Program-made: the position numbers and the translations under genes | Assembly (NCBI GenBank): GCA_037043015.1 | Contig: CM073321.1 | Span: 32,342,101 to 32,406,100, forward strand | DNA length: 64,000 bases | Origin: Bryum argenteum | Lineage: Eukaryota; Streptophyta; Bryopsida; Bryales; Bryaceae | Direction of reading: 5' to 3' | The notes under the pieces: generated by a model | What the model was told of the DNA's origin: nothing | The model's database searches: none | Seen by the model: only the letters and a program-made list of their open reading frames with translations | Shown here: positions 1,789 to 39,130 of the stretch, piece after piece | Layout: every line of letters begins with the position of its first letter | Position numbering within the stretch: position 1 is the first letter of the stretch

Positions 1789-1806
1789 CGCCGGGGCGAC
1801 CAGAAA

Positions 1807-2250
1807 TTCAAGGCGACCGGCGGTCCAGATAGAGATATGACGTTGCGTGGCGACCGCCGGTCCAGTGAGAGCGCGACCGCCGGTGCAGCTAATCGCGACA
1901 GCGGGAGGCAGGGCGACCGCCGATGCAGCTGTTCGCGACAGCGAGAGGTAGGGCGACCGCCGGTGCAGCTGTTCGCGACAGCGAGACGCAGAGCGACCGC
2001 TGGTCCAGCTGTCACGACTGCGGGACGTAGGGCGACCGCCGGTGCAGCTGTCGCGACAGCGAGACGTAGGGCGACCGCCGGTGCAGCTGTTCGCGACAGC
2101 GAGACGCAGGGTGACCGCCGGTCCAGCTGTCAGGACTGCGGGACGTAGGGCGACCGCCGGTGCAGCTGTCGCGACAGCGGGACCTGGGGCGACCGCCGGT
2201 GGGCGACTGTAGGGCGACCGCCGGTGGGCGACTGTAGGGCGACCGCCGGT
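1807..2250. repeat. 39-40 bp minisatellite with GACCG-C-CGGTC palindromes between two divergent promoters
   Basis: About thirteen copies of GGCGACCGCCGGT(C/G) occur near 1811, 1849, 1873, 1911, 1952, 1992, 2031, 2070, 2110, 2149, 2189, 2213 and 2239. Most are 38-41 bp apart, and three intervals near the ends are 24-26 bp. Each full unit carries three symmetric sites in order: GACCGCCGGTC (5-bp arms around one base), CAGCTG (an E-box) and TCGCGA. The array fills almost the whole space between the two TATA boxes. Such spacing, close to four helical turns, would place the sites on one DNA face. A regulatory array or transposase-binding array is inference. Confidence 0.85.
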
Positions 2251-2259
2251 CTCCAAGGA

Positions 2260-2267
2260 TATATAAA
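2260..2267 (+). promoter_or_regulatory. TATA box for the kinase-like gene
   Basis: TATATAAA directly follows the last palindromic unit. A start site would be expected around 2290, upstream of a short ATG-led frame at 2329 that stops within 24 codons and so may be an upstream ORF or a non-coding leader. Confidence 0.55.
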
Positions 2268-2418
2268 CCCCAACGCGCGGGTTTGATATTACTTTTCCCC
2301 AAACCGCTACCGAATTCTCCTCCGCCCTATGTCCTTGCTCGTCTTAATGATGCGCACTGCCGGGTGGTCTGAGGAGTTTTTGGGGTTTGGTGCACATTGA
2401 TAGCAGGGGGGAGATTTT

Positions 2419-4001
2419 TTGCCGGTTTTTTCAAGAACTTCAGTGTTGAGTAAATCCAAAAAGCACGGGAAGGGACAACGAGCATGGGATCTGGATGCCC
2501 CCGAAACATTTGCACCAGACCTTGGTATGCAACAACCTAGTGGAAGTGGAGGCCATAAGAGGAAGAGGAGACACCCAAAAGAAGAAAGACCCGGATTCCC
2601 AACATCAGATTATACTAAGTTTGCGGAAAAAGCATGCATGGATTGGTATGAGGAAACGGAGGCTCAATTCCTAGAGCACAACTACCTCAGGAATGTTAGC
2701 ACGGGCAAAGAAAGACTGAAGAAGAAATTGGCGGCAGTAATTTTGAAGGCCATGGAGAAAACGAATAAATACCAAGATGTGGATTATCATTCACAGTACG
2801 AGTTGTGGATGGATAATACAGTTGAACAATGCATCTTCAATGTAAAGGAGTTGTGGAAGAAGCGATTTGGACAGAGGCGTCTAACACAAGAGGAGGACCA
2901 GTTTAAACGCAAGATGGATTGGTGGCAACACACAATCCAAAAGCTTAGCAAGAATAAAACCCGAGGGAAGTCATGGAAAAAACCGCTTTGCGCGCCACAT
3001 TTGAACGAGACACAGGGTCGGGGGTGGTGTGGATTCCTCAAGACGCTACGATAGAAGCTCTATCAGGCCGCAATATGGAGGGAGGCCATGGACTGGTGCG
3101 GAAGGTAAAGATACTTGGAGTAGACCACGTTCCAGAAAATGTCGAGTTTGCAGCAAAGCTTTCCAAGAATATGAATCTTCAGAAGAGGAGGATAGAGACT
3201 GCTGCAGAAGCTCTTGTATGTCCTTTGAATCATCCAGGAATTATCAAGTTTTGGGCGTTGCATACAAGGACATTCGAAGCTTACTCATATTGGTGGAATG
3301 GGGGATCACTACACGAGATGTTGAAGTTGGATGAGAAGGTCGGGGACAAACATCTTCACTGGTCGAAAGTGAAGGAAGTTCCGAGTCTCACTCAAGAAAA
3401 GGCTTTCAGAAGTAGCCTTTTCCGTCAGCACAGGATGAAGTTAGCTTGGGGTTTAGTGTACATCATGAATCTCGTGCATAAGACAGGAGTTCTTTACAAC
3501 GACCTATCCCCCTCGAACATACTATTGCATTTCCCAACTTTCGGAGGAACCAAGATTTGTATTGGAGTGTGTGACTGGGGGATGGCATCTCGTATAGTAG
3601 AACAACAGCCTTCACGTTACGGATACCAGACGACGCCAAAAAAACAAGAAGATATGACACGTCGATGGTGGGTGGCGCCCGAGTTGTTCTATACTTATGG
3701 ACCTGAAGGTTCTGATACAAATTTGAACGTCCAGGAACTTCGACATCCAACCACAGTAGCATCAGATTCGTATGCGGTTGGCAAGCTCATCCAGCTGATT
3801 GGTGTGCATAACGAATTCGACAAAGAATTATTACCGAATTCGACGGTGCGAGATTCATTCCTAACGAAAGTGTTTTCAGTGACCAGGCATGAATTAAAAG
3901 AGAGAATGACCTGTGCGGAGGTGGTGAACCGCTTGATGGCGAACCATATCATATGCTTCCACCGGAGCTTGTATTTAGAGAGGACAGTTATTAGTTTATA
4001 A
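2419..4001 (+). CDS. Protein-kinase-like gene with unknown N-terminal domain (frame change near 2.96-3.05 kb)
   Basis: Two overlapping frames make one gene. The first (open from 2404, last codon near 3054) is basic and unrecognised: RKRRHPKEE, then a helical region with DWYEETEAQFLEHNYL and WKKRFGQRRL. The second (from ATG 2973 to 4001) is a protein-kinase fold. It has a Gly-rich loop (GGHGLVRKV), the beta-3 Lys in FAAKL, a helix-C Glu, a catalytic loop YNDLSPSN in place of HRDLKPxN, DWG in place of DFG, and WWVAPELF in place of APE. The catalytic Asp, Asn and Mg-binding Asp survive, while the DLK Lys is Ser, so activity is possible but not certain. The frame change may be a short intron or an indel. 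No ATG begins the first frame before about residue 37, so an upstream exon or later start is likely. It is not a typical plant receptor kinase: no signal peptide or membrane segment is seen. Confidence 0.62.
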
Positions 4002-4395
4002 TATCAGTATATCTTCTTGCAATTCATAGACTCCTTTGGATGACCATCTCACGTCATTGAGTGCTCATTTAGCCATGTAATTCACATTTCATACTTGCAA
4101 TATATACAATCTACTTTTTGACATATTGTTCCAAATCTAATAGATTTTTGCAACTCTTATAATTATGTTCCCTTTTTACACTAGTCACATATGTATGTCA
4201 CCACATTTTTTGTTACGTGAGTTTCAAACCTCATGGTTGATGTTAGCCTTTTCTTCAGGGGTTTGTGGATTGTTGTAATTTGTTTCATCTTGAATTCTTA
4301 ATGCTTCATCTACGTTTAAAAACGTGAACGGAAGAATTTTGGATAATGTTGGATAAAAAATTGACTTATTCTACTCGGGAAGCCTCCAATGCAAG
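4002..4395. other. 3' flank of the kinase-like gene, no gene seen
   Basis: AT-rich sequence after the stop codon at 4001. I see no coding frame or repeat in it before the palindrome array begins. Confidence 0.6.
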
Positions 4396-4690
4396 GCCGA
4401 CCTAGGCGACCACCGGTCGAGGGGCCAAAATAGGCGACCACGGTCCAATGAGACCGCCCGGTCAAAGAAGACCGCCGGTCGCCCTGGGCGATCGTCGGTC
4501 GCTCATGGGCGATCGTCGGTCGCTCATGGGCGATCGTCGGTCGACCTTGGGCGATCGTCGGTCGCTAAGGCGACCGCCGGTCGAGAAGAAAAACGGCCCG
4601 GTCCGCCAAGGCGACCGCGGTCTAGATGACGCGATCGCGGTCCCGATCCCTACGTGGCGCGATCGCGAACCGTATTCTTGGACAAAGCGA
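4396..4690. repeat. Second GACCGCCGGTC / CGATCG palindrome array
   Basis: At least a dozen variants of the palindrome seen at 1.8-2.25 kb recur here: GGCGACCACCGGTCG, AGACCGCCGGTCGCC, then four consecutive units of GGGCGATCGTCGGTCG spaced about 20-25 bp apart, then GGCGACCGCGGTC and CGCGATCGCGGTC. The sites are closer together and more varied than in the first array. Finding the same motif on both sides of the kinase-like gene ties the two arrays to one element or regulatory domain. Confidence 0.8.
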
Positions 4691-4691
4691 G

Positions 4692-4701
4692 GCCACGTGG
4701 C
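4692..4701. promoter_or_regulatory. Perfect G-box palindrome GCCACGTGGC
   Basis: A ten-base perfect palindrome with a CACGTG core, followed within six bases by a half copy (CCACGTA). This core is a known plant bZIP/bHLH binding site. It sits at the edge of the second array with no promoter recognised beside it. Confidence 0.35.
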
Positions 4702-4734
4702 AGCCACGTAGGATGCAACGTGGATAGGGTAAAT

Positions 4735-4845
4735 CCAGGGTAAAAAAAAGATTATGTAGATTCTATTAGACATTCTGAGGCTCAATGTCTGTCTGACATG
4801 TCGTGCCTGTCTGACGTCCGTCTGTGTCTAATAAGACGACCCTGG
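4735..4845. repeat. Imperfect 110-bp inverted repeat at the end of the kinase island
   Basis: CCAGGGT (4735-4741) pairs with ACCCTGG (4839-4845), and TATTAGACA (4764-4772) pairs with TGTCTAATA (4825-4833). The loop holds repeated GTCTGAC words. It may be a hairpin-like element end or a small foldback element. Its position between the palindrome array and the start of G-rich sequence suggests a boundary. Confidence 0.5.
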
Positions 4846-4960
4846 GGGTAAGGGGGGGGTTGGAATAGGGGAGGGAGTAAGGGGAGGTATCGGAGGTTGC
4901 TTCGTTTTTTAAAATTTTTTAAAATTTTTTATAAAAAAAATGTTATTTGAAGAATAATGA

Positions 4961-5489
4961 AATAAACATAATACCACCGACCAGTGTGTTCTTTAGTCTT
5001 AATATAAATTTTGATTTTAAAATCAAATATATGATTAAACCATTATGATGAAGAATTTATTTGCAATATAGCATTGGAAAGAAGATTGAAATAAACATAA
5101 TACCATCCAGCAATATATTTTTTAGTCTTAATATAAATTTTGATCGTAAAATCAAATATATGATTAAACCATTAAGATGATAAATTTATTTATAATATAG
5201 TAGTGGGAAGATAAATTAAATAAACATGATACCACCCACCAGTATATTCTTTAGATTTAATATAAATTGTGAGCGTAAAATTAAATATATGATTAAACAT
5301 TAGGATGATAAATTTATTTGTAATAAAGCATTGGGAAGAGGAATGAAATAAACATAATACCACCCACCAGTATATTCTGAAGTCTTAATATAAATTGTAA
5401 GCGTAAAATCAAATATATGATTAAACCATTAGGATGATAAATTTATTTGTAATATAGCATTGGGAAGAAGAATGAAATAAACATAATAC
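4961..5489. repeat. 129-bp AT-rich tandem repeat, four copies plus a partial
   Basis: The word AATAAACATAATACC recurs at 4961, 5090, 5219, 5347 and 5476, giving periods of 129, 129, 128 and 129. Each unit also carries TTTAGTCTTAATATAAATT and AAATATATGATTAAACC. Divergence between copies is modest. The fifth copy is cut off where the GC-rich block begins, right after ATAATACCGCCC. Confidence 0.9.
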
Positions 5490-5490
5490 C

Positions 5491-7256
5491 GCCCTACCCC
5501 TCTCGGTACCCGCCCTTCCCCCGCCCCCGATACCTGCCCTACCCCCTGGTACCCGCCCTACCCCCTGGTACCCGCCCTACCCCCTGGTACCCGCCCTACC
5601 CCCTGGTACCTGCCCTACCCCCCGGTACCCGCCCTACCCCCCTCCGGTATCCACCCTACCCCCGCTGCAGATCGGCCCCTACCCCCTCCCGTATCCACCC
5701 TACCCCCGCGCAGATCGGCCTACCCCCGCGGTACCCGCCCTACCCCCTGGTACCCGCCCTACACCCCCGGTACCCGCCCTACCCCCCGTGGTACTCGCCC
5801 TACCCCCTGCGGTACCCGCCCTACCCTCCGTGGTACCTGCCCCTCCCCCCCGTAATCCACCCCTCCCCACGTAGTTTTTCAAAATTTTTTGCAAAGGTTT
5901 TTGTCATCTCTCTGACCAATCTTATGTTTTGCAAACAAGCATCATTAATGGGATAAGCAAATCCAAACATTCCCTCATTAAAGCCGGGATTTGGAGTATC
6001 CCGGATATAGTGGGGAAATGTTTGGATTTCCAATGATTTGATAGACCATCCTTCCACTCCTCTTCCCTTCCTCCTCTTCTCTCCTCTTCCCTCGCCTTCT
6101 CTCCTCACTCCTCCCTTTCTTTTCTTCTCTTCCCCCATCACCCGCCCTCTCATCCTCCCCCCCCTCAACCCCCCACCTTCACCCCCCCCTCACCCTCGCC
6201 CTCACCCCCCTCACCTCCCTCACCCCTCACCCACTCACCCTCACTCCCCTCACTCCCCTTACCTCCTCCGCCTTACCCCCAGACCCGCCCTAACCCCTTC
6301 GGTATCCGCCCTACCCCTCCTCCAGACCCGCCCCCCCCCCCCCGATCCGCCCTACCCCCCGGTGCCCGCCCTATCCCCCTCTCGGTACCCGCCCCTATCC
6401 CCCTCTCGGTACCCGCCCTACCCCGCGGTACCCGCCCTACCCCCGCGATACCCGCCCTACCCCTCGTGGTACCCGCCCCTCCCACCTCGTAACCCGCCCT
6501 ACCCCCGGACCCGCCCTACCCCCTTGGTACCCGCCCTACCCCCCGTGGTACTCGCCCTACCCCCTGCGGTACCCGCCCTACCCTCCGTGGTACCTGCCCC
6601 TCCCCCCCATAATCCACCCCTTCCCACGTAGTTTTTCAAAAATTTTTGCAAAGGTTTTTGTCATCTCTCTGACCAATCTTATGTTTTGCAAACAAGCATC
6701 ATTAATGGGATAAGCAAATCCAAACATTCCCTCATTAAAGCCGGGATTTGGAGTATCCCGGATATAGTGGGGAAATGTTTGGATTTCCAATGATTTGATA
6801 GACCATCCTTCCACTCCTCTTCCCTTCCTCCTCTTCTCTCCTCTTCCCTCGCCTTCTCTCCTCACTCCTCCCTTTCTTTTCTTCTCCTCCCCCATCACCC
6901 CCCCCTCACCCTCGCCCTCACCCCCCTCACCTCCCCTCACCTCCCCTCACCCCCCTCACCCACTCACCTTCACTCCCCTCACTCCCCCTTACCTCCTCCG
7001 CCTTACCCCTCGGTACCCGCCCTAACCCCTTCGGTATCCGCCCTACCCCTCCGGTACCCGCCCTACCCCCCCCCCGGTATCCGCCCTACGCCCTCCCGGT
7101 ACCCCTCCTACCCCCTCTCGGTACCCGCCCTACCCTCTCCCGATACCCGCCCTACCCCGCGTGGCCCCCTCCTCGCCCGCCGCCTCTTTTCCCGCCTTGG
7201 CCCCCCTTCTCCCCGCCCCGGCCCACCCTCACCCGCCCCTAACCCCTTTCACCCGC
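5491..7256. repeat. GC-rich minisatellite block (GGTACCCGCCCTACCCCC units) with polypyrimidine tracts
   Basis: Units close to GGTACCCGCCCTACCCCC repeat about every 18-20 bp in three runs (about 5500-5850, 6290-6600, 7005-7160), each unit carrying the palindrome GGTACC. Between the runs lie pyrimidine-only stretches of CCTCTTCC type (6040-6260, 6805-6995). The strand asymmetry is extreme: the minus strand reads GGGGGTAGGGCGGG, with four G-runs within short loops, so G-quadruplex structure is expected there. Long open frames on both strands, rich in Pro or in Gly/Arg, are by-products of the repeat and I do not call them genes. Confidence 0.85.
5780..7055. repeat. Tandem duplication of a ~530-bp segment inside the GC-rich block
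   Basis: The segment from about 5780 to 6320 is repeated from about 6537 to 7055, offset 757 bp at its start and 731 bp at its end. Between 5880 and 6060 the two copies are nearly identical, including a unique non-repetitive core (GACCAATCTTATGTTTTGC, then the start of CATTCCCTCATTAAAGCC). The near identity of unique sequence argues for recent duplication. Confidence 0.85.
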
Positions 7257-7441: not shown

Positions 7442-9921
7442 ATGACAACCTTGGCGGCTACTGATGGTGGCGATATGGTAGGATTTTCGGAGGAGTTGCA
7501 ATCGCCATCCACAACGGTTGTAGATTTGGTCGACTACGAGTTGAAAGCTGAGGACATTGCTGTCACCAGTCAAGGAATCTCGCCTCCTCCTTCCAATCAA
7601 CCTCCCGCCGTTGACGATCCCAATCAGGTACAGGCAACTGACCTTTATTATTTTGGGTGATTTATCTTGCATAGAGTCTTCCATCCGGCACTCTAGAAAC
7701 CGCTTCTAGTAATGTTCTCTAGTATAAATTCATTCGTCTTGATAGGGTGTCAACACCGGTTCATGATGACTTACGCGAGGACAACCACCCCGTCTGTGAC
7801 GACGTTTTGTGTACTCTATTGTACAATAGTGTTTATGAGTTGTCCGAGTTTATACTGACTTTAGAGATGTACATTACTTCAAATATTAATATGAAGAGTG
7901 ACAATTTTTTCAGAGACTTGCGCATGTGTCTAATTGTCATTGCTTATTAATGTTTATGATGCCGAGCTCCGAAACAATATATGCTTGCATCATCTGCTTA
8001 CCTTGGAAGCTCATCCCTCCTATCCACTCCCGGCCTCCCATATCTCATCATTTAATCAGATATCATCATATCTTTGTGTGTTGTGTATTGATCAGGTAGA
8101 TTGTGTCGGGGGTAGGAGGGTGATCGTTCCGATACCGCCGCGTCCGCTGCGAAGGAAGGTGCTGAATATTGTCTTCGACTTAAACGGTATACTTTGTCAT
8201 ACAGCGTTGAAGATGACGCGTGTTGGACAAAGGTCGTACAAGTTGAAAGACAATATTCTCTGCCACCAAATTCCAACTGTAGTTGGTCCTAAGGTGCTTT
8301 TCGCCCGACCAAATCTTGGAGAATTCCTACGCCAGGTTTTCTCAATGGCAGATAATGTCTTAGTGTGGACCTCAATGCAAAAGCAGAATGCGGAAGCCAT
8401 TGTGGGCCACCTCCTTCGCGATACGAAAGGTCTTGTCGCGATCCTTAGCCGGGAACAATGTACAAAATTGAGCTCTCTCCTAGGTGCTTCTTCCACGTTG
8501 GTCAGAAATTGATGCATATGAAGGTCCTCTCAGAGACCTTGTTCACCAACCCTACTAGGGGCGCATTCTTTTCCCCTGATAATACCCTTCTCATTGACGA
8601 CTCTCCAATTAAGAGCATCTGCAATGAGAATGGCAACGATGTGTTCCTTTGCACTTGGAATCCTCATGTTGGAGAGGACGACTTCCTTCTGAGGAAACTT
8701 TTACCGTGGCTTCAAAGGTTAGACTCTAGGTGCCAACCGGGTGACCTACGGAGATACGTTGATAACCAACGAATTGGTGTCAATCCATTGAGTGCGGGTA
8801 ACTTGGCTTAAGATTACCGCATCGATTGGATGAAGGAGTCTTTGAAGAATATGGGGACGCGGTTCAATCTTTCTGGGTTGGATATGGTTGTTGAGGGAGG
8901 AAGGGTTAGATCTAGGTCCCCGCTGCGGGCATTGGGTTTAGCATAGGTAACAAACATTTTATCTAGGACGCAATTTGTGTACCATAATTATTTGTAATTG
9001 ATTTAATCCAAGCTTGGACTAAATGTTTATTTGTAATTAATTTCCAGTGTTTGTATTCTATGTTGGATTTTGCTGGTTTTGAATATGCTTGTTGGTGTGC
9101 GACAAAGTTTATACTAAGCATTGTATATAACAGGATGGATATACTAGCATCCTCGAACCGAGGAGTCCTTATGGGTTGAGTAGAAGTCTTCGCTCTAGAT
9201 CAGATTCTGAAGAAGCCAATTGCGACTCACTTCCATATTACAAACCATACTTGTTGCGATCTACGGCTGACGCCATATCTACGGCCATAGACTATTCCAA
9301 AGCGGACATCGAGGTTGGCGTGGTGAATAGTCCCCTTAGTTGGAGTCCAGTCAGAAGTCCCGTGTATTTGCTGTCTCCGTTGAGGCGCGTATCGTTGAGT
9401 CGAGAGGATTGTTTTTCGCCGAATGGGCCAGCTGGCGAGGGGACCAACCGTAAACTTAACCTCCTCATCAAAGAGACGCCCGAACCTCAATAGGTGAAAG
9501 AGACGCATGAGGTTGTTGTTTTTGAGCCAACTGTACTATAGCCGTCATCACTAGATCTCCATATGTATGGAAGGGAAGTCTTTCTAGGGACCCTGTAGTT
9601 GTCGAAATTGCTCACACTGAACCGCGACAACCAACAAGTATTCCAGTTATGTATAGAAAGAAGCTCAATGCCACAATGTCCCCGCTTCCTCCTCTAGGGA
9701 CATGGTCCCTTTCGGAGGGCAAGGTGGGCAAGGCCTCAGATAGCAGTGGAAGAAAAAAACCAAAATACGAGAGAGTAGGATACAATAGTGCATGTTATAA
9801 TGCGGCAGGTGTGGGTTATACCTCCTTTCCTTCACGTCGGAACGATATCATGAGAGGTTTGGCCAAACTAAAAGCAGAGGAAGGTGCTAAGGTAAAGGAG
9901 GAAGCATTTTTGAAGAAGTGA
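7442..9921 (+). pseudogene. FCP1/NIF-like HAD phosphatase gene, multi-exon, decayed
   Basis: Exon 1 (7442-7627, 62 codons, phase 0) ends at CAG/GTACAG. Exon 2 starts at 8096 after TTGATCAG in the same phase. The protein has the HAD layout: motif I is FDLNGILC (first Asp kept, second Asp replaced by Asn), motif II region is VWTSMQKQNAEAIVGHL, and the late acidic motif is TLLIDDSP, followed by GEDDFLLRKLLPWLQRL, as in CTD small phosphatases. The reading frame shifts once within REQCTK (about 8460) and again near 8810. Candidate later exons run from 9134 after AACAG (an RS-rich stretch, RSLRSRSDSEE) and around 9649-9921 (basic, KAEEGAKVKEE), separated by in-frame stops. The motif I change and the breaks suggest a dead copy. 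The family acts on phosphoserine in CTD-like tails; here the substrate is unknown. Confidence 0.65.
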
Positions 9922-10780
9922 GCTCTCCAAGAGAAGATTTTTGTTTAAAATAAGTCTTTACCTATGTACAGCCTTTTTCCAAGAGTTTAATAAAAAACCC
10001 GAGGGCAGTAAATAGGGGATTTTTTTGTCTGGAGAGTCTAAATCGGTCAGAGTTATGCGATTACGGTCACAAAATAGAAGGTAAGTCAATAATGATATGA
10101 AATTAAGGTTCCAATTACATTCTTTTTTCAATGTGCGATTCCTCTCGGAAATCAAAACTCATCACAATACTCTCAAGTTCAATGGTAATGCATAAAAGTT
10201 ACTTTGTAGCATCCAGCACTTCGAACCATGTTCACAATCTCTATAATTAACATTCACAATTCTTCATTAACACATGCAATGTATATAATTCTGATTTTAT
10301 ATTAGACAATACTTAGCAATTTTACACTTCTTGTTATAACAACAATTGTTCCAGTTCTCTCTTCTACTTCAAATTCAAATTCAAACTTAATTACACTTTC
10401 ATGAGTGTGGGATACACATTCTCTTGCATGTATTTAAAACACAAATGAGGTTGTTTCTCCTAATTGTATCTCTCAATTTTGTATTTACAACTTTTCATTT
10501 CACTCATGACGGTTCATTTACCAACTTTTCACTTAATTCCCCTTCTAATATTATTTAGACTCCAATTCACACGTAGAAAGGAAAATAAAAAGTAAATTGG
10601 ATTTATAACACATGAAAAGTTAAAAGTACACTCAAAGTTCCAAATTTACGTACTACATAGCTTCTTCCTCTATGTGTTTGCGTCCCCGCAAACAAAATAG
10701 AAGAAACAATACAGAAATGAAGTAAGTTGAGAAAAACATTGGCCATAACCTCCTCATGCAAGTCTTTTATTGAATCCAGT
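9922..10780. other. AT-rich spacer, no gene seen
   Basis: Low-complexity AT-rich sequence with repeated ATTCAAATTCAAA-like words near 10370. I see no coding frame of note and no palindrome cluster until 10781. Confidence 0.6.
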
Positions 10781-11318
10781 GACTATAGTCCTCATCTGTC
10801 CTCCAACGTATAGGTAATTATGATAATCCTGTGAATTGTCTTCCTTTTTTCTATAGTCAATTGGTAAATAACCCATGCCAAAGGAAGACTATAATCCGTC
10901 CTTGTTCTTTGATCACCTTTAATAATGGATGTTCTTTAGAGACTATAGTCTTTTCTCTTCGTAGTTGGGTGGCGACACACAGTCAGACTATAGTCTTTAC
11001 TCATAATTTTCTCGTAAAGAGCCGAGGGTGGGCCCCTCAGGTGATACATCCATTCATAAGGGCTATAGTCTCATACGGATGGGTGGCTGGTTTGTTCATT
11101 CAAACAGGCTATAGTCTTACGATGTATAAATTTCATCTTTTGCTTACATCCTTGTTATTGACTATAGTCTAGCCAGATCTATCAGATGCATAGCCATTCC
11201 GGATCATACAACTTGGTTCCTTAATACATTTCCAAATTTATACTTAATTATCTTATGGTGCTATGAATAGCTTACGGTTACCACCTGCTAGAGTCCAGTA
11301 TGCTCCAAGACTATAGTC
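10781..11318. repeat. GACTATAGTC palindrome cluster I
   Basis: The ten-base palindrome GACTATAGTC or a one-base variant occurs near 10781, 10851, 10888, 10939, 10986, 11071, 11108, 11160 and 11309, about nine times in 540 bp. The sequence between copies shows no common period, so this is dispersal and not a tandem satellite. A second cluster lies at 29.9-32.5 kb. Confidence 0.85.
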
Positions 11319-11381
11319 CATGCATGCTGCATTCGCAGGCTTGTTCATTGTAATAAAAAAAAAACAAAACAAAATTCAACT

Positions 11382-11894
11382 CTAATGATGTCTATCACGA
11401 GAAGAAGACCCCATCCGATCCATTTGCTCTATCGCTCCACTACTCGCGGTGTCTGTGGCTGCAAGCTGTAGCTTGGTTCGTCGTTGAACCTGCAAAAAAC
11501 GCTGGATAGGCTTCATTCTCAGATTCCCAAACTCATTTATCATGGTCAAATCGGCACCAATGATAAAGTGAGTTGGGCACATGGCCTCTAACATCCGATT
11601 CACTAGAGTGCATTGGTACAGTAGCTTGAGTGTGAGCTAGAACTCCGGATGCTCCACCGTATGATCCTTTGCAGTGTTGTGAATATCCACATCTATCCAT
11701 ATTCCAAAATCCAAGCACCACTTCGCAAGTATTTTGCAAAATACCGCCGCTTTGTAACAAACTAGATCCTGGTAGTTTCGGTGGTGCATCCAGAAATCGG
11801 GGAACGTAGAGGCGTGAGCGTAGAGCGTAGAGCGTAGAGCGGTGAGCGGTGAGCGTAGAGTGGTGACGGGACAATTTTGACTATTTTTTAACAA
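11382..11894 (-). pseudogene. Unrecognised gene remnant beside GACTATAGTC cluster I
   Basis: Minus-strand frames that switch once or twice carry coding-like sequence: FPDFWMHHRNYQDLVCYK and KWCLDFGIWIDVDIHN upstream, then NRMLEAMCPTHFIIGADLTM and a Gln/Arg-rich tail ending RDRHH at 11382. I do not recognise a family. It lies just beyond the palindrome cluster, as the 30-31 kb remnant does for the second cluster, so both may belong to one element family, although I could not align the two proteins. The upstream end is lost in a short tandem repeat. Confidence 0.35.
11805..11875. repeat. Seven-base microsatellite (GCGTAGA / GCGGTGA)
   Basis: Runs of GCGTAGA alternating with GCGGTGA type words, about nine units. 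It sits at the 5' end of the minus-strand remnant and probably arose by slippage. Confidence 0.75.
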
Positions 11895-12284
11895 TTTTTT
11901 TTCAAAGTAAAGTACCCTATTACCACTTAATTTTGTTCTATACTATTTTAAAATGTCTATTTTTAGGGTTTAGGGTCCCTAATTCCGTGGTGTTGGGTCT
12001 TCTTTAAATGTGGGTCCCACCTTGCAAAAATATTTCATTTGTATTGTCATGATGATTTTATGTGAATATATTGAAAGTAGGGCTGATGTCATCATATTGG
12101 TGAACGTGTGAATTGGAGGCATGACTATTTAAAGGTTATATTGAACATATGATTTGATATCATTCACTAAGTTAGTCTCAATTAGATAGCGAACGATGAC
12201 TTTACTCTTTTCACTTCAAAACATCGTGAAGTGTTTTTAACGAGGGAGATCATCGTTCGAGGAGGAGTGTTGTGAAGTGTTCCT

Positions 12285-12500
12285 CAGTCGAGGAGGAGTG
12301 TTGTGATAAGCGACCTCGGAACCTTCTAGAACCTTCTAGCAGATCTAACTCTCCGGTTAGTTCGAGTTAAGTAAAAGTCTAAAGGAAAAGTATCTAAAAT
12401 TACTACCCTAACCGGGGTATATATATGTGAACCATATAGAGGTTCAAGAAGATCTTTCAATACCAGTTATATATTGCTTCCTCATAAAATCATAAAACTT
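12285..12500 (+). mobile_element. Copia-like LTR fragment (fossil)
   Basis: A purine-rich stretch ending GAGGAGGAG precedes TGTTGTGATAAG, as at the junction between a polypurine tract and a Ty1/Copia 3' LTR. A TATA-like TATATATATG at about 12417 follows. The purine-rich word with its TGTTGTGA occurs twice, 28 bp apart. No internal coding region is seen nearby, so this is a lone, old end. Family and limits are tentative. Confidence 0.35.
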
Positions 12501-12626
12501 GTTTTTGGATTTACGGTTTAGGGATAAATTAGGGCTGACGTCATCATGAAAATACAACAAAAATTCAGCGAAAGCAAAGAACCCTAGAGATCTATACTAC
12601 ATCCTTGAATAGTTGCCTCTTATGTA

Positions 12627-29494: not shown

Positions 29495-29864
29495 ATGTGA
29501 TAGTTTTCCACACTATATTCCATATTCGCCCTAAACCCTAGACTGTGTAGTTAACACGTTGTGTGACTATATTTTGCAATATAGCTTAAAAAAAAATATA
29601 TTAGTATCTATGTCCACAAAATTGTTTAAGTAATGTCACACCATAAGTGTCTCCATGTCTTTTGAATGTTATTGAAGTTTGCCAAATTTCAGAATTTTTT
29701 CCCTCATTTCCACGGGTTCAGGTTCCAAATCCACGGTAATAAGTCAGGAATATTCGAATATTCTCTAGAATATTATGTATAAATTTAGAATTTTATATTT
29801 TTAGTAAAATTTTCCAAAGAAATGTTCTCACCACTGCTCGAGTTCCCCACAAACTCCGTCTATA
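29495..29864. other. 3' flank of the MULE gene
   Basis: AT-rich, with several TATTCGAATATTC / GAATATTATG words near 29750-29790. No gene, and no terminal inverted repeat that I could pair with the other side. Confidence 0.4.
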
Positions 29865-32500
29865 GTTTGACTAACCACAAGATTGTAGCGCCGCTCCGAT
29901 AAGCTCTTCTTGAGCTAGGCTATAGTATGATGCTGCGCGCGGTTATGCTCCTGTGTGGTGGCAATGTCTTGCTTCATGCGCCGTTGATTGACCTGGAGCC
30001 GGCCAATGGCCTCAACTGTGGTCTTCTTTTCTTGTTGCGCATCTCCCACCTCCTTCCTTAACTGGTCTATAATCGCCTGATTGTTACTTTTCTCCCTTGC
30101 CAGCTCTCGTTCCCACTGTTTCACCTGCGCTTGCAAAATACTAATTACCTGTTGTTGCTCCTCGTATAACTACGCAGTTTGGGTGCGGGCATTGAGCAAC
30201 ATCTCCTGTTGGCGCGTGTGAGCGATTGTGGACGCTTGTGACATCGCCGAACCCCGGTCTATAGTCCTTTATAATTGGGCTATAGTCTCGGCCTGCTGGT
30301 TGGTGTGATTTAACAGGTCCCTGACCCGCTCTACCATGTCACTCACCTTGGACAATTCGCATGCAAGGCAATCCTCCAGCTGCTCTCGCTATTTCACTGT
30401 TAGCCCGGCCTCCTCTTGCTGCGGTTTTTTCTTCTTTGGCTGCTGTCTCGGTTGTGGATTGATTGCAGACTGTTGCCCTGAAGCTGCCCTCATGCATTTT
30501 GAAGTTGGCCTCTCACAACAGCTGTTTGCTACGTTGACCGGCAAAGTTGAGGCGCCTTCTTGCAACGCCATTGTACACAATAGAGTGAGGTACACCTGAA
30601 ATTTGTGATTCTCAAGCAGTTCTCCCTGTTTCTTCTGGATTTTTTTTATCACTTCTTCTTCTATCACACAGGCCCAATTCAGTTGAATGCCGTTCCAGGC
30701 TGCCAATGCCATCCTTCTCAAATCTGAGCTAAGGGAGAGGGGTGTATCTTCAAAAGCAAATTTCAGGTTTATGAAGTTAAGCCATTCCTTCCATGGCTCC
30801 AGAGCTTCATCGATATGCCAACCAGTTGCTTCATAAGAGGTAAAATCTCTTGTGAAAATTCTTTTGGCTTTGCTTTCAGTGATGTGCTTGGCTGCATTCA
30901 ATGGCAATCCATTCGTTGGTCCAGGAATGTGCGAAGCCTTGCAGATGGTTTGCGCTGTGATGTGGATATGCCGATTTCCGATCCGGCCCACCAACGTTGC
31001 TAGATTCACAATCGAGGCAATGAAAGGCAGCATATAGCTCTCGTTTGGCCATGGTCTAGAGTTGTGTTCCTTGATGAACGATCATATTCCTGCTTGCTTG
31101 AGCTTCTCAACATTTCCTCGCCATAGTATGGTCTATTTAATCTCCTTCTTCATCACTGTTTTCTCGCCTTTGTCTGTTGTAGGTGCAGCAGGCCGTGATT
31201 TTGGTTTGGCTATCACCAGTATCGGTTCTGCTCACCTCTGGTTGGTTGGAGGTTGAGAAGTGCGGGCCGCTCCCGCTTTCGCTACTAGTTCATCTTCCTT
31301 CCTTGCACGCCCCATCTCGACCTGTTTATAGTCCGTTGTCAGCTTCAATGATAGACTATAGTCAATGATGGTAAGCAACTCTTGCTGGGCTATTGTCTCT
31401 GATTAACCAAGGTCATTCACCGAGACTACAGTCATTTAACATCTTTGGTTCAACCATTGCATCTGTCTAGAGTCTTACAGGGTGCCAATTCATCACAAGG
31501 TTTGTTTCAATCTTTCCACATTTAACTTGCTCATGTTGCTCCGGACAATAGTCATATTATTATGTTTCAACGTTTGTTCCTTGCATTCCTGCTCAATTGT
31601 CTATAGTCATCTGCATCTACTATTGTCACTTGATTTTCCATGTTTTGGCTACAGAAGAGCAATCGTTTCACTCACAGTGTGGCTAGTGCGTCTGATGCAG
31701 CGTCTTCCCTTTAATACCCTTCCTTCAGCCGCCTCGCACCTTGTTGTGCGTTTTGAGCCCCTGGCTCGGACTATAGTCTGATGTTAAAATTGGCAGTAAG
31801 TCTATAGTCTATGTGCCTCTTACTTGCAGGCCATCGACTATGTATCCCAAGACTATAGTCTGATTGAGGTCTGCTCATTTGTTCTTTTTCATCTGAGACT
31901 ATAGTCTTTAACTAGCAAGCATCTCTACGCAGGTTCTTTTTACAATTCGTTCGTGCAAGAGAAGGGAAAAGAACGGTCGTCAACCATACTTACAGGCTTG
32001 CGGTTGACTCTCCCTGTCGAGTCTCCTCCTGGCACTTCGGTGTCTCGTTCTGCTCCACCGTCAGAATATAGTCCTCTCCGTAGTGACCTCCGATTCTCAC
32101 TCACGACTATAGTCTTATTGTTCTCCATGTTTGCTCACTCGCCTCCTTTTCACGCCTTTGTTGCCCTTCTTCTAAGCACCAACTATAGACTTAGCGGCTC
32201 TGTCTTCTGCCGAAATTGACTATGGTCTCCCTCGATGCCTTCTCTGCGCATACGTTTGCACGACTATAGTCTCCTCAGCGTGGAAGAATGCAGAAAGAAG
32301 AGAGAGATCAAGAGGAGAGTCGGAGTGACATAGCTTGGTTGTAACTGCTTTTTGTAACCACCTTTTCAAAATGCCGTCATTCCTGCCTAATCACTAGTCC
32401 ATTCACTAATCTTGTCACTTTCGACTATAGTAAGTTTATCCATCGCATGGCGGCTCATGATGACCATGCCGTCTTTTATCACTATAATAAGACTATATAG
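29865..32500. repeat. GACTATAGTC palindrome cluster II
   Basis: More than twenty copies or near copies of GACTATAGTC, for example near 29869, 30255, 30280, 31321, 31354, 31599, 31769, 31800, 31850, 31896, 32103, 32262 and 32423. Two are perfect twelve-base palindromes (AGACTATAGTCT at 31850-31861 and 31896-31907). Density is highest between 31.3 and 32.3 kb. Spacing is irregular and the intervening sequence does not repeat, so the motif has been spread or kept site by site. Confidence 0.85.
29915..31033 (-). pseudogene. Unrecognised coiled-coil protein gene, broken, overlain by GACTATAGTC motifs
   Basis: The upstream part (31033-30389, 214 codons) reads VGRIGNRHIHITAQTICKAS, then WHIDEALEPWKEWLNF, then a Gln/Lys/Pro-rich tail. 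The same frame continues downstream, after a few breaks, as a long heptad region (QAQVKQWERELAREK, QQEKKTTVEAIGRLQV) to 29915. I do not recognise the family; it has the general look of plant transposon proteins of unknown function. Two copies of the palindrome (near 30255 and 30280) lie inside the reading frame itself and not only beside it. Confidence 0.4.
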
Positions 32501-32895
32501 CCTTTTCCAAGACAGCCTACTTGCTTGTTTCAGTCCTGTTCTAGTGTACTATTTTCCACTGTACTTCATTGCAATTTTTAATCTTTAAAATTAAACCTCC
32601 TCCATCTATTTTTATTTTTTATTTATTATTATTCAATCCCATTGTCTTTGATTGTTTCTCAGTTTTTTATATTTCACAAGATTTGCTTTGGTGGAATTTC
32701 TTCATATTCATATTCCATTTGAATGTCGATAGTCTTGATAACCGGAATATCTTTCTCCTACTTTAGTTCAAGTAGATAAAGGTTTGGATACAAGGAATCA
32801 TTTTTTTTAAATTATATTTTGTTATCTTATCTTATGTAATTGTTTACTTTTTTTTTATTTTAAAGTTTTAATTTTATTTTATTTTAAAATTTGCA
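32501..32895. other. AT-rich sequence next to the Gypsy fossil
   Basis: Very T-rich on the plus strand, especially after 32780. It may include remains of the left-hand LTR of the Gypsy fossil, but I cannot pair it with a second LTR. Confidence 0.35.
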
Positions 32896-35800
32896 TGCCT
32901 CCCCCCTTCTTTAGCATGAAACTTGTCCTCAAGTTTGATATAACTTGAGTTGATTCCCGTTATATCGCGTTGGGTGGATGTTTCCTTGTAAATCTTGCAA
33001 ATCCATAGACCCATTTTCATAAATTTTATAAATTTTGTATGGGCCAAACCACCGCATTATGAATTTCCCTAGAAATTTTTGAAAACAACTATTATATGAT
33101 AATACCAAATCTCCAACTTTGAGTTCTTTGGGTTTAAGTTTGCTATCGTAATAGCTTTTACGCCTATTTTGCATTGATGCCATATGTAAATAAGCTTGGG
33201 CTCTTTTTTCGTCCAATTGTTCTAACTTAAAACACCTTTGTTTAAGGGATTCGACGTTCAATCTATTGTCTATTGCTATACGTAATAATTGAATTTCAAA
33301 CTCAATCGACAAAATGGGCTCTTGGCCATAAGCCAATTGAAATGGTGTATGTTTTGTTGTTACTTTGTATGCCGTGCGATAAGCCCATAGGGCATCTAAA
33401 ACCCTTTCATCACAGTCTGTATTGGATCCTTGAACGGTTTTGGTAATTATTTTACATAAAATAACATTGGTCCTCTCAGTTTGTCCATTGGCCCTTGGGT
33501 GATATGGTGTTAACTTCCTATGTTTGATGAAATATTTATTCAATAAATCCTCAATGATCATATTCACAAAATGGGTGCCTCTATCACTTACAAGTTCTTT
33601 GGGGCATCCAAAATGAATGATTATGTTTTCATAGAGAAATTTAGCAACGGTTTCCGCATCATCCGTTTTTGTTGGCATTGCTTCCGCCTACTTAGTCATA
33701 TATTCCGTAGCAATTAATATGTATCGACATCTTCCCTGTCTACTTGGAGGTTTGATTGGTCCTACAAAATCAATTCCCCATTTTTCAAATGATATCTTTG
33801 CCAAAATTGGATGTAAAGGCATAGCCAAGCTAGTTGTTGGTTTTCCAACGCGTTAGCATGGATCACATCTTTTCACATATTCTGCTGAATCTTTGAATAG
33901 AGTTGGCCACCAATAGCCAGCATTTGAGGCTTTTGTGGTTGTTACAAATCTTGCAAAATAGCCTCCACAAATTGAGTGATGGCATGCTTCCAAGATTGAT
34001 GGAACTTCGTTTGGATTAATACATCGCCTTAAAATTCCATCTTTTTCTTTCTTGTACAACACTTCACCTATCATAGTATAAGGAGCCGCTTTGTAAATTA
34101 ATCTATCTCTTTGTTTAGAAGTGTACTCTATTGGAATAGTTCCATTTTGCAAATAATGAATAATCTCGGCATATTCAAAAGGTATCACGCCTACTTCAAA
34201 GAGTTGTGCATCCGGTAAGTCGTCATTTATTGGTTCCGAGTTTACTTTATTGGACATACGTGATAAATGGTCCGCATTTAAGTGGCATTTTCCGGGTGTT
34301 ACTTGTATAATAAAATTAAATTCTTGTAATAAAAGTACCCATCTTGCAATCCTTCCACTAAGTTGTGGTTTATTTATCATGTACTTGAGCGCGTCATGAT
34401 CCACATGAAAAGTGAATTTGTAGCCTATTAAACAATGCCGATATTTTTGTACAGAAAAGATCATGCCTAAAGCTTCTCATTCCGTAACCAAATAATTTCG
34501 CTGAGCAAAGTTTAATTGCCGACTTGCAAAATATATTGAGTGGTCTCTTCCATTCTTGTCCTTTTGACTTGGTATACTTCCTATAGCCTAGTTGGAAGCA
34601 TCTACATACACCTCAAAGTCTTTATCCCAATTTCGGGGAGACCAAGATTGGTGCACTTATCAATTTTTGCTTCAAAGTGTTAAAAACTTCAACACAAGTA
34701 GGTGTCCATACCAGAGTAGTTTTACTTTTCCTCAAGAGATGCGTCAAAGGGAGTGCAATGTCAGCATACTTGTAAATATACCGTCTATAGTAGCCAACAT
34801 GGCCTAGAAAACCTTTGACTTCCGAGACAGTGTTTGGTGGTGGCAAATTTGCAATTATTGCTACCTTATCCGGATCGGTTGCCATGCCATCCTTTGATAC
34901 AATATGGCCAAGCAATTTTTCAAAAAGAACAATAAATTGTGACTTTGCCGCATTTATGGATATACCATATTTGTTACATTGTTGAAAACACTTGGATAGT
35001 CGGTCCGCATGATCTTTTTTTGAGCTAAATACGCAAAAGTCATCAAGAAAAATTTCCATGAATTTTCTCAAATACTTTTGGAAGGCCGTAGTCATTGCTC
35101 TTTAAAATGTAGCTGGCGCATCGCATAAGCCAAATGGCATTTCATTATATGCAAACGTACCCCAGTCTGCTGTAAAGGTCGGAAGCGCTCTATACTCCTT
35201 GGCAATTTGAACTTGGTTATTTTTAGAGAATCCATGAAGAAAGGAATACGTTTCATGTCCGGCTACACTATCTAATAGTGTGTCCGTAAATAGCAAAGGA
35301 AAATGGTCCTTCTTTGTTACAGCATTCAATTTCCGAAAATCTTGGCAAATTCGAAGTTTGCCATCTTTCTTTGGTACTACAACAATCGGTGAAACCCATT
35401 CTCTATATGGAATCGGATAAATTTATTCGCATTCACTATATGGAACTCGATAAATGAATCCGCATTCTAACAATTTATCTATTTCCTCTTTGACAATGAG
35501 TGAATATTTTGGATTCATGCGATATTGTCTTTGTCGAATAGGTTATGTATTTTCTTCTAAGACAATTCGATGTTCACAAATTTCAGGTGGAATACCTCTA
35601 AGGTCTTTGTATGTCCACGCAAAGCTCTTCTTATTTGCTTTGAAGAATTTGAGCCATGTTGTAAATTCCTGTGAAGTTAATTCTTCATATACTTTTATTA
35701 CTTGGGGTTCTTCCTCAGTTCCTAAATTCATATCTTGGCAATTTAATTTCAAAGATCCAAGTTGAGTAGGATCTTGATCTATATCACTTGGAAACTCTTC

Positions 35801-36078
35801 ACCATCTTTAGAATCCGAAGTGGAATTAGGCAAACTACTTCATCTATAATTCGTATTGTACGACCTCCAACAATACTTCCAACTCTCACTTCTTGGACCA
35901 CACCATGAGCAACCTCTGTGCCATCAATGTTAAATAGAGAAACAAGTTTTGAATTCTCAAATTCAGACCATGTTCTAACTGATGCCGATCCTTCTGCACT
36001 TGAACTAGGGCCTCCACCCGAAGATAGACTACAACGTAAAGCCCCATTCATATCTGCATAAAAAAAATTGAATGTCAA
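32896..36078 (-). mobile_element. Ty3/Gypsy LTR retrotransposon fossil, pol region
   Basis: On the minus strand the order is protease-like region (about 36078-35540), reverse transcriptase with a FLDDF active-site motif, RNase H, the H2C2 zinc-binding and core domains of integrase, and an integrase C-terminus ending at 32929, followed by a purine-rich tract (32896-32911). This order is that of Ty3/Gypsy elements. No gag and no clear pair of LTRs were found. The coding region is broken in several places, so it is an old, dead copy. No chromodomain is evident. Confidence 0.85.
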
Positions 36079-36087
36079 ACAAGTAAG

Positions 36088-37105
36088 GGGTTAGGCATGT
36101 GCCTACCTCTGATAAAACATGTGAACGTACAAATAAAATGATTCTTGTTAAAGAAGTAACAAAGAAGTGGCCGAAAATCCAAATCCAAGTCAGCAATTTT
36201 TATAAGGGTAGGCATGTGCCTACCCTTCACGTAGCTTACAAATATACAATTGTTGAAGGAGGTGTGAATTTTGAATCCACTCTCCATTCACCAATTGTAA
36301 ATAAATGATGTTAAAGACTTACAAATTGTCAGTACTTCAATGAAAGCTTACAAATATAAGTGAATGTTTTTATAAGCGTAAGCATGCGCCTAGTACGTAT
36401 AATGGAACATACAAATATACAATTATTGGAAGCAGGGTAGGCACCTGCCTACCTTAGATAAAACATATGGATATATAAAAATAAAAGTCATGTAAAAAGA
36501 GTTCATAAGGGTAACAGATACGGTACGACTCTAGCAAAAAAATCGAGATCCAAGTGACTAAATTTTATCAAGGTTGGCATATGACTACTCCTTATACAAA
36601 TTTACAACTAACTTACAAATATAAAATTACTGAACAAGGTAGGCAAGTGCATACCACAATATATTAATAATTTGAGAATGTTAAAGAAAATAATGTAAAT
36701 AATGTTCAGGAACTTAAAGACTCGGTACAACGCTACAACGCAATCCGAAATCTCTAATACAAGTAACCAAATTCCATAGGGGTTAGCATGTGCCTACCCT
36801 TCATGGAACTTACAAAATATCCAATTATTGGAGGCGGGTAGGCATGTATCCGTCGGGCTTCAATAATTTACACATGGTTAGTTTTTATAGGTAGAAGTTC
36901 CAAAATGGGTACAACCTGCTTGACATATCCCAAATACAAGTGATTAAATTCTATAACGATAGGCATGTGCATACCACAATAATTCAACAATGAGAGAATA
37001 AATAATGTTCAAGAACTTAAAGACTCGGTACAACGCTACAACGCAATCCGAAATCCCTAATAGAAGTAACAAAATTCCATAGGGGTTGGCATGTGTCTAC
37101 CCTTC
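36088..37105. repeat. Palindrome family GTAGGCA-NN-TGCCTAC, dispersed part
   Basis: Ten copies near 36090, 36206, 36377, 36436, 36573, 36640, 36781, 36836, 36959 and 37085. The best, at 36206-36225, has nine-base arms (GGGTAGGCA / TGCCTACCC) around TG. Intervals fall near 55-67 or 118-140 bp, as if built from roughly 60-bp modules. Some blocks recur, for example AAGACTCGGTACAACGCTAC at about 36717 and 37020. Confidence 0.8.
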
Positions 37106-37820
37106 ATAAAACTCACAAAATATCCAAAGCGGGACCGGCATAAGCTTGATGTGGAGATGCTGAGCTTGAGTTGTATCCGACACCGGAATTTGGTTCACTT
37201 TGCGAGAGGTTCACCGGAATTTATGGCATGCATTTGGTTAAGGCAAATTTTGTTTTTGGGTTAAAAATGCACCCGATACTACTTGAGGGCTGATTGGCTG
37301 GATTTTGTCGCTGAGCACCATCTTCACGAAGGCCAACACCTTCTCTTCACTCTCGTTGCCGACTCACTCCTCGTCGTGCGAGAAGTGACCTTTCTCAACT
37401 AATGACTCAGAATCTTGACTAGGTGCAGATTGTCATTAGCTCTTGACCTGCAACCATGAGTAGTTTGCAAAAGCATGAGAACATGAATAGATTGCAAAAC
37501 ATGAGAACGTAGCTGAATAGTTTCTGATGCGATTTTGTTACTCATGCAATCATGTTATTTTGAAGTATCGCTCGAGTTTCTTATCCTGTTACGTTCCCTT
37601 TTCTGGAATGATCAAACAAAGCCAGTTTACAAAGGTGAGCCAAATGGAACGTTATTAGTGAGGCCTTTGCTAATTGGGCGTAGGAAGAGGTGCACAAATC
37701 GTACCAAGCGGTGATCCTCAGAATATTGACAATTGATACTCTCTCATTTACGCATGAGGTATTTCTCAAGAAAATGATATGATAGTAACATCCGTACTTG
37801 AGATAAACATATCAGATTCT

Positions 37821-38665
37821 TGGAATATGAAATGGTTGTCTTGTGTGCAAGTAAGATAAGCGAAGCTTTCAACTTTCTGGTCCTCTTGATTGCAGATTTG
37901 TATCACGCAGGGCTTGACAAGAACATCCATAACTTGAAGTCGATTGGCGGTTAGAGTGCTGGAATGTTTTCCGAGGCAATAGAGCTTGGTGCACCCACCA
38001 GCTTTGGCTCTATCTTCATATCTTTCCGGAGTGACATATATTTGTGATCACGTCATAGTTCACGTCTGCTCCTTTGATGGTTATTTAGGAGGTGAGTCAA
38101 CTTTGTTCAAAAGCGTGAGATTCGGACAAATGTGATGTGTTGCTCTTAACGTTAGAATCTACTAGTGGTCTATCATATCCTTGGAATAAGAAGTGGTTCT
38201 TTTTTGTGCACATACGAAGAAGAACTCGTTCAACTTACTGACCAGTCCTATTGGATTGCAGCTTAATTTTACGCACAAAAACATTCAAAGCCTGAAGTCA
38301 ATTCACAGTTTGAGTTCTTGAATGTTTTTTGAGGTAGTGTAGGTTGCCGCATGCATCAGTTTTGGGCTTGGCTTCATTCTGCTTCGCTCTCGTGTAAACT
38401 CCCGTGCATGTACTTCCGGTCACGTTATCGTCTTTATCTGCACCATTGATCAACAGTTATTCTCGAGGTGAGTCTGCTTTGTGAGATCATGACTTGTGCT
38501 CAGACTGACTGAGGAGCATGTGATGTGTTGCTCTTGAGTCTTGATGTGAAGATCTTTTTGATGGTTTATCATATTATTGGAATGCGAAGTGGTTGTAGGC
38601 TGTGCACACAAAAAGGAGGATTTCTACTTAGTGGTCCTCCTGGATCGCAACTTGAATTTATGTTT
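37821..38665 (+). repeat. Diverged 361-396 bp tandem repeat, two copies and a partial third
   Basis: Starts are marked by TGGAATATGAAATGGTTG (37821), a variant at 38182 and another at 38578. Each unit then has GGTCCTC/CAGTCCTA-type words, GATTGCAG, AACTTGAAGTC and GAGGTGAGTC near its end. The repeated GATTGCAG and GAGGTGAGTC resemble splice borders, so these may be repeated leader exons or promoter units for the gene at 39.2 kb. Confidence 0.65.
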
Positions 38666-38694
38666 TCATTTAGACTTTGTTTTCGTGAGTGCAA

Positions 38695-39130
38695 AAAATG
38701 AAGGGTAGGCCCATGCCTACCTCCTCTTTGTAATAAAATTTATTTTTGGTGAATAAGGAGGGTGGGCACATGCCTACTTCTTCTTCGTATTGAATTAAAT
38801 GTTAGTGCATGAAGAGGGTGGGCACATGCCTACTGTATTTTCATTTAGACTTTGTTTTCGTCAGTGCAAAGAGTGAAGGTTGGGCCCATGCCTACCTCCT
38901 CTTTGTAATAAAATTGATTTTTGGTGAATTAGGAGGGTGGGCACATGCCTAACTCTTCTTTGAATTGAATTAAATGTTAGTGCATGAAGAGGGTGGACAC
39001 ATGCCTACCATGATCTCATTTGGACTTTGTTCTTGTGAGTGAAAAGCTTGAAGGGTAGGCACATGACTACCTCCTCTTTGCAATTAAATTGGTTTTCGGT
39101 GGATAGAGTGGGTGGGCATATGCCTACCGC
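38695..39130. repeat. Palindrome family GTAGGCA-NN-TGCCTAC, tandem part with ~175-bp higher-order unit
   Basis: Eight palindromes near 38704, 38760, 38818, 38878, 38936, 38991, 39055 and 39111, spaced 55-64 bp. Three different roughly 58-bp subunits alternate, giving a higher-order unit of 174-177 bp (38704, 38878, 39055). The array ends about 70 bp before the reading frame at 39199. Confidence 0.85.

Follow-up and report, generated by a model that had tools for sequence, protein, structure and literature searches.

Family-specific palindromic words beside accessory genes in four transposable element families of Bryum argenteum

The window analysed here is a stretch of 64,000 nucleotides from Bryum argenteum (GenBank assembly GCA_037043015.1, contig CM073321.1; C1:32342101-32406100). 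Its first 44 kb are largely stacked transposable elements, with islands rich in short palindromic words. The palindromes are real, and each belongs to a different transposable element family. The four families are called K (hAT-type), T (Mutator-like), A (a Ty3/Gypsy retrotransposon) and G (a transposon with terminal inverted repeats, TIRs, and a DUF7869 gene). Copies of each (K1-K3, T1-T4, A1-A3 and G1-G3) were fetched around motif clusters, so they serve as a check of linkage and not as a random sample. Three relatives of T (P1-P3, the T' copies) were picked through tblastn matches of the transposase alone, independently of the palindrome. Genome-wide counts cover 258.8 Mb in 25 contigs.

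The right part of the K element occupies positions 1-4844, and its left end lies outside the window. The right end reads CGACCCT(G) in the window and CAACCCT(G) in K1-K3, and it is common to window position 4844, K1 2464, K2 7500 and K3 2040. In K1, DUF659 (E 1.7e-22) and Dimer_Tnp_hAT (E 8.2e-7) are located between GACCG arrays, and this hAT transposase and the window part of K presumably form one unit. The accessory gene o191 (188-1654, minus strand) is an open frame without known domain, coiled-coil by eye, with 92 tblastn matches genome-wide. The divergent gene o2404 (2404-4001, plus strand) consists of an N-terminal region and a protein kinase domain (Pkinase, E 1.2e-10). One array of GACCGNCGGTC (1810-2255, plus strand) lies between these two genes in 39-bp units, some of which contain a second palindrome, GCTGTCGCGACAGC. 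The other array (4396-4640, plus strand, 21-bp units in its middle) is near the element end. As separate observations, this hAT-type element carries a protein kinase gene, with relatives in K1 and K3; several diverged o191 relatives (29-47% identical) stand in a row in K1, with GACCG sites spread along its 20 kb; and the longer K word is frequent at the start of C1, whose first 4.3 Mb hold 100 listed places out of 1370. Less than 5 kb from a K array, K2 also carries a gene related to the T accessory gene (706-3681), apparently from another element beside the K fragment. Just past the K element end, an AT-rich 129-bp tandem repeat of about four copies was found at 4949-5494.

By blastn, window positions 11795-29839 are one element, T, with 95-98% identity to T2 over the main colinear pieces. 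It runs from 11799 to 29837 (about 18 kb) with the left TIR at 11799, is apparently inserted in A, and has lost its right terminus in the window copy. The complete copy T3 is flanked on both sides by a 9-bp target duplication, AAATGGAAG, and has imperfect TIRs sharing GGCGTGAGCGTAGAG; T was classed as Mutator-like because of these two features. The palindrome island (18450-21912), filled with TTCGTCGACGAA, is located between the divergent accessory and transposase genes, and its first five exact sites are spaced by 240-297 bp. The accessory gene (13455-17867, minus strand) is a gene model with many short introns, in which a small exon at 18152-18160 was left out; the window copy has one in-frame TAG within the conserved domain. 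Its relatives are present in T2, T3, T4, P1, P3 and K2. The transposase candidate (25604-29494, plus strand) is a gene model of 3 exons and 1110 amino acids with 86 tblastn matches. At E<=1 it gave no Pfam match except a weak one to DUF123 (E 0.025), and its SWIM-like C-terminus, CxC..CxH, was read by eye only. Besides, a small gene without known domain (24161-24954, minus strand) has similar stretches in P2 and P3. T4 keeps the accessory gene and the array, and the transposase open reading frames (ORFs) found no tblastn match there.

The T word extends outwards in its relatives. T1 and T4 contain AGAC-N-TTCGTCGACGAA-N-GTCT in units of about 264 bp, with a perfect 22-bp palindrome in one unit each. 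Among the copies chosen by transposase, P1 and P3 have the core in tandem arrays: P3 has TTCGTGGACGAA in 351-bp units, and P1 has two copies of a 58-bp palindrome round TGCGTCGACGCA, one of them perfect and one with a single mismatch. In P2, neither a palindrome core nor an accessory gene was found within the 10 kb read, and the transposase frames are intact. In diverged T relatives, the core CGTSGACG lies inside longer palindromes, also where the island DNA is no longer alignable. The pattern AGACNTNCGTSGACGNANGTCT occurs 771 times genome-wide versus 0 in the backwards control, that is, the identical pattern read in reverse. Its second variable pair is complementary in 62 of the 63 listed places; these places belong to subfamilies, so the symmetric changes amount to few events. 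The first-pass annotation had described the sites of the different elements as unrelated, and for T this has to be modified, as the wider family shares one slowly changing core.

The A element is found in two parts, since T is apparently inserted into it. The left part (10008-11798, minus strand) has an LTR-like stretch and GACTATAGTC sites at 10781-11318, and was recognised by blastn to A1-A3. The right part (29838-35829, minus strand) contains Ty3/Gypsy integrase, RNase H and reverse transcriptase genes with GACTATAGTC sites at 31354-32271. The domains rve, RT_RNaseH, Integrase_H2C2 and RVT_1 in the right part, together with the copies A1-A3, place A among Ty3/Gypsy elements. The window LTR-like stretch matches the far end of A3, and both long terminal repeats were found in no single copy examined. 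The left flank of the T insertion matches A1 and A2 and the right flank matches A1-A3, with no single A copy spanning the junction. The two GACTATAGTC islands, which had been counted as separate islands, are most likely one A element split by T. The accessory ORF o30392 (30392-31081, minus strand) is downstream of the integrase and has 40 tblastn matches; no domain was found in it by domain scans. A words stand on both sides of this small ORF, between the integrase and the LTR. As a side observation, lone GACTATAGTC words at C1:14169179, 21118900 and 29169014 each stand no more than 20 bp from the end of a stretch that weakly matches the G accessory protein, and are perhaps part of a conserved coding stretch rather than of A elements.

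The G element covers 35831-43774; its left part is missing in the window, and its right TIR ends near GCAGATGT. Outside the arrays, its longer colinear pieces are 85-91% identical to G1-G3. The TIR, ACACCTGCTTCRTTAAAAGTGC, was taken from the ends of G2 and G3, and TIRs are present at both G2 ends. A DUF7869 gene (E 9.8e-39, minus strand) was found in G1, in a stretch common to G2 and G3. Therefore, from the TIRs of G2 and this common stretch, G is read as a TIR transposon with a DUF7869 gene. Its first palindrome island (36091-37130, plus strand) is characterised by GGTAGGCANNTGCCTACC and the second (38703-39128, plus strand) by tandem units of 56 and 175 bp. The G words are located between the divergent DUF7869 gene and the accessory gene (39218-43028, plus strand), a gene model of several exons whose frames are broken in the window copy. 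Within this gene, a 9-bp tandem repeat (AGGAGTTGG, 42542-42689) gives a glycine-valine-rich stretch.

The exact words are few in the window. The K word GACCGNCGGTC has 6 copies (1815-4572), the A word GACTATAGTC 11 (10781-11309 and 31354-32262), the T word TTCGTCGACGAA 6 (18739-21767) and the G word GTAGGCANNTGCCTAC only 2 (36208 and 36437), while GGCANNTGCC has 7 between 36094 and 39115. With palindromic words of arm 5-7 and spacers of 0-4, the maxima for any word in 20 first-order Markov shuffles of 1-kb blocks were 4 copies (arm 5), 2 (arm 6) and 1 (arm 7). When up to 2 mismatches were allowed, the window islands contained 15 T sites (TTCGTCGACGAA), 20 A sites (AGACTATAGTCT), 14 G sites (GGTAGGCANNTGCCTACC) and 12 K sites (GCGACCGNCGGTCGC) against a Markov expectation of 0-0.2. 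The earlier statement that each palindrome is repeated tens of times is therefore acceptable for near matches (12-20) but not for exact copies (2-11). Genome-wide, the counts against the backwards control were 47 versus 0 for GTAGGCANNTGCCTAC, 193 versus 33 for TTCGTCGACGAA, 360 versus 138 for GACTATAGTC and, on both strands, 1370 versus 1 for the longer K word GCGACCGCCGGTC; all four words are commoner than in this control. A ranking of 8-mers that is blind to symmetry was also carried out in 11 islands, bounded by hand round motif-rich stretches (K1 was taken as its whole 20 kb) and with words of fewer than three different bases excluded. In all 11 of these islands the top 8-mer came from the palindrome. 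For instance, CTATAGTC had 19-30 copies in each of four A islands, and the next listed word 3-5.

The linkage of words to accessory genes was evaluated by comparing position lists with circular shifts, within 5 kb for T, A and K and within 8 kb for G. The gene lists contain the best candidates only, and the T, A and K figures are among the matches listed. The extended T palindrome is near 10 of 28 listed loci found with a ParB-like profile (C1 0-13.256 Mb; shift mean 0.48, reached in 5 of 20000 shifts) and is upstream of the gene in 10 of 10 linked loci. The T 12-mer is near 5 of 29 listed accessory loci (C1 to 32.34 Mb, window excluded; mean 0.17, 7 of 20000 shifts), upstream in 5 of 5. For G, 9 of 11 loci with at least 67% identity, outside the window, have the word (mean 0.01, 0 of 3000 shifts), upstream in 9 of 9. 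The A word accompanies 5 of 9 listed loci (mean 0.06, 0 of 20000 shifts), upstream in 3 of 5, and the K word 5 of 7 (C1 to 4.335 Mb; mean 0.56, 29 of 20000 shifts), upstream in 5 of 5. The copies fetched round motif clusters carry one gene family per motif, T1 only in part. Accordingly, the earlier proposal of elements that each have their own site is supported for the pairing of word and gene family, but the elements are of four unrelated superfamilies and not of one family. By BLASTP, the accessory proteins of the four families showed no mutual similarity beyond one match with E 0.96. The words are family-specific, clustered, contained in the dominant word of their island and, in the DNA elements, mostly upstream of the accessory gene.

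The change of the sites was compared between copies. Sites changed less than the DNA outside them in T versus T3 (6.9% and 20.5%), T1 versus T4 (2.3% and 8.2%) and K versus K1 (6.0% and 15.5%), comparisons that are favoured by the picking of sites near the consensus. The words persist in places where the non-coding DNA around them can no longer be aligned. The accessory ORFs of A1 and A2 are only 31-36% identical. A profile was made of 68 A sites, taken from the window and the copies A1-A3 and aligned on TATAGTC, which is fixed by construction; it gave 1.2, 0.6 and 1.8 bits for the preceding G, A and C and 0.8 and 0.6 bits for the next two positions. Further out, the flanks have at most 0.42 bits, mostly below 0.25, and are near random. 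The claim that variants preserve the symmetry was not borne out within the families. Pairs changed on both sides numbered 7 (A), 0 (G), 0 (T) and 3 (K), compared with 8.8, 2.5, 1.1 and 15.6 expected if changes were independent, and 0, 0, 0 and 3 of them are complementary.

A family-specific word retained in unalignable DNA and linked to a gene suggests a regulatory docking site. In the explanation that we favour, whose chances we put at about even, the words would be family-specific docking sites for element-linked regulatory proteins. In each of the four unrelated elements, an accessory gene stands beside a non-coding stretch packed with the palindromic word of its family. A regulatory protein that recognises this sequence, and that is probably symmetric or dimeric, would dock on the word and would most likely be encoded by the linked accessory gene. 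This protein may act on the promoter region of its own element, and of its own family only, either holding it open against silencing or driving its genes. We infer the protein binding, the origin of the binder from the accessory gene and the anti-silencing or activating outcome.

Several results weigh against this explanation. Half or more of the motif clusters have no listed gene (10 of 20 and 13 of 18 for T, 14 of 19 for A, 9 of 18 for G and 17 of 22 for K); linkage, the check named in the first-pass annotation, is far above the circular shifts. Some of these clusters may be unrelated; they weigh weakly because the gene lists hold the best candidates only. The exact T 12-mer is absent within 5 kb of 24 of the 29 listed T accessory loci, and among the 28 loci from the ParB-like profile, only P1 and C1:2840608 were identified with known T accessory genes, the rest being presumed. 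The A site is partly one-sided, with 31 half-sites CTATAGTC versus 4 GACTATAG. Between the window T and T2, sites changed more (5.1%) than the DNA outside (2.4%), perhaps an effect of the CpG-rich word. Site protection was not significant for A versus A3 or for G versus G1, G2 and G3, and the sites do not appear clearly protected in recent copies. Scanning of the accessory proteins recognised no DNA-binding domain in any of them. Finally, the K array at 4396-4640 is subterminal, 204-448 bp from the element terminus, and GTGCACATGCCTA, which resembles a G half-site, lies just inside the right TIR of G.

The last two points also fit the view that the words are transposase-binding sites for excision or transposition. 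The TNPA sites of Spm and the subterminal motifs of hAT elements are sites of this kind, bound by an element protein. As expected of a non-autonomous element, T4 has kept its array and gave no transposase match. We consider this view unlikely. The T island keeps a distance of at least 6.6 kb to both element ends, and the T ends examined contain no word of this kind. The T, G and K arrays are located between divergent genes. A is a retrotransposon without transposase, and its sites flank the accessory ORF; P2, over the 10 kb read, shows no palindrome core in spite of its intact transposase frames. The arrays of short sites would resemble those of CACTA/Spm and hAT elements in being bound by an element protein, but theirs are subterminal, whereas the T, G and A arrays are internal and beside the accessory gene.

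Alternatively, the words may be sites of host transcription factors, recruited independently by each element for expression in certain tissues. Dimeric plant factors typically recognise palindromes, GTAGGCACGTGCCTAC with the centre CACGTG is frequent among the G words, and the accessory proteins are without known DNA-binding domain. This seems rather improbable in view of the backwards controls for the extended T word (771 versus 0) and the K word (1370 versus 1), and four long, differing words, each tied to a single family among the examined copies, are not what shared host factors would lead one to expect. That the words are passive fragments of tandem repeats without function, noticed for their symmetry, fits the many tandem arrays (units of 264, 351, 39, 21 and 56 bp) and the little site protection in recent copies, but is very unlikely overall, as A sites are dispersed with flanks near random, T subfamilies with unrelated repeat units share one core, and parts of the palindromes rank first in a symmetry-blind count; for K and for a C-rich GGTACC block it is possible.

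The docking of an element-linked protein would have its closest parallel in the Arabidopsis VANDAL elements, a published case of site-specific transposon anti-silencing (PMC5735166, PMC10398659). There, VANC21 is described as binding YAGTATTAY arrays enriched in the non-coding regions of VANDAL21 (PMC5735166), and related VANCs as acting on different VANDAL families (PMC5735166, PMC10398659). As those reports present it, the likeness consists of a Mutator-like element with an accessory gene and a short family-specific motif, often tandem, in non-coding regions, which differs among related families and whose density is the distinctive feature. T likewise has family-specific motif arrays in non-coding regions. 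On the other hand, YAGTATTAY is arrayed in one orientation, and palindromes are unmentioned in the main text of both reports (PMC5735166, PMC10398659), while the words here are symmetric (A partly) and belong to four superfamilies including a retrotransposon and a hAT element. Symmetry and the spread over four superfamilies would thus be the differences from VANDAL/VANC. Among titles and abstract openings, a literature search returned nothing on palindromic site arrays across plant transposon superfamilies.

If the arrays work alike, unrelated superfamilies in one genome would have converged on private symmetric addresses, and this rule could be tested through the dominant palindromic word and the binding of the linked accessory protein. 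Moreover, natural pairs of a long DNA address and its binder would be offered for chromatin targeting in plants.

A bolder version is that four superfamilies of this plant lineage, Ty3/Gypsy and hAT included, independently evolved a private symmetric array together with a dimeric binder that keeps the family expressed, the T binder being a ParB-like clamp on parS-like palindromes. Self-addressing would in that case be a general anti-silencing strategy of transposable elements and not a VANDAL peculiarity. We regard this version as unlikely. A conserved domain with a GNHR box stands at the N-terminus of the T accessory protein (16765-17289, minus strand), and its stretch YFYVYEGNHRVTAWM is tentatively read as ParB-like. 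The likeness to ParB-parS is in the palindromic site, which parS of bacteria and phage also is, and in the weak match of the GNHR box to a ParB-like phage profile: each of the 3 T accessory relatives that were compared gave a hit to phrog_1033 (E 0.002-0.005). An E of about 0.002 is not decisive, because the K protein o2404 reaches E 0.002 to an unknown PHROG. A genome-wide search with phrog_1033 returned 119 hits, each beginning at one of the profile positions 81-83, and 14 of them were matched to known T accessory loci or P1/P3; the hits add no independent support, because the T accessory gene has many copies.

The other comparisons were negative. Searches with the T domain found no ParB in Pfam and nothing by NCBIfam and PDB sequence searches, and Pfam ParB_N gave a single match with E 1.5 in the whole genome. 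The profile comparisons were no better than shuffles. Compared by hhalign with the N-domains of 36 bacterial ParB proteins, the T domain scored 12.7, a value exceeded by at least 10 of 40 column shuffles. An hmmsearch run with the T profile placed the first genuine ParB at rank 38 of 854, after shuffled sequences; when the ParB profile was used instead, shuffles took all of the top 12 places in the list. Relatives of phage P1 ParB (47 loci, 97-100% identical) were of no use for the comparison, and the single-sequence AlphaFold2 model of the domain (mean pLDDT 36) was too poor to use. By tblastn, relatives of the T accessory protein were found in no plasmids or viral contigs, with two unrelated weak matches in phages. 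The literature search, again of titles and abstract openings, found nothing on ParB-like domains in plant transposons. The ParB-like nature of the T accessory protein is a lead only, which failed most tests.

GGTACC, suggested at first as a fifth palindrome, was rejected. Its 22 copies at 5505-7120 are inside the 19-22 bp unit of a C-rich minisatellite, and its symmetry is inseparable from the tandem duplication because it is part of this unit. A 300-bp stretch of the block is present in two copies (97%), 757 bp apart, at 5745-6801. The block is followed at 7442-9921 by a gene that encodes an NLI-interacting-factor phosphatase domain (E 4.4e-10). Further along the window, a pair suggestive of a land plant is seen at 56-61 kb, where an SBP-domain ORF is followed by an ankyrin-repeat ORF.

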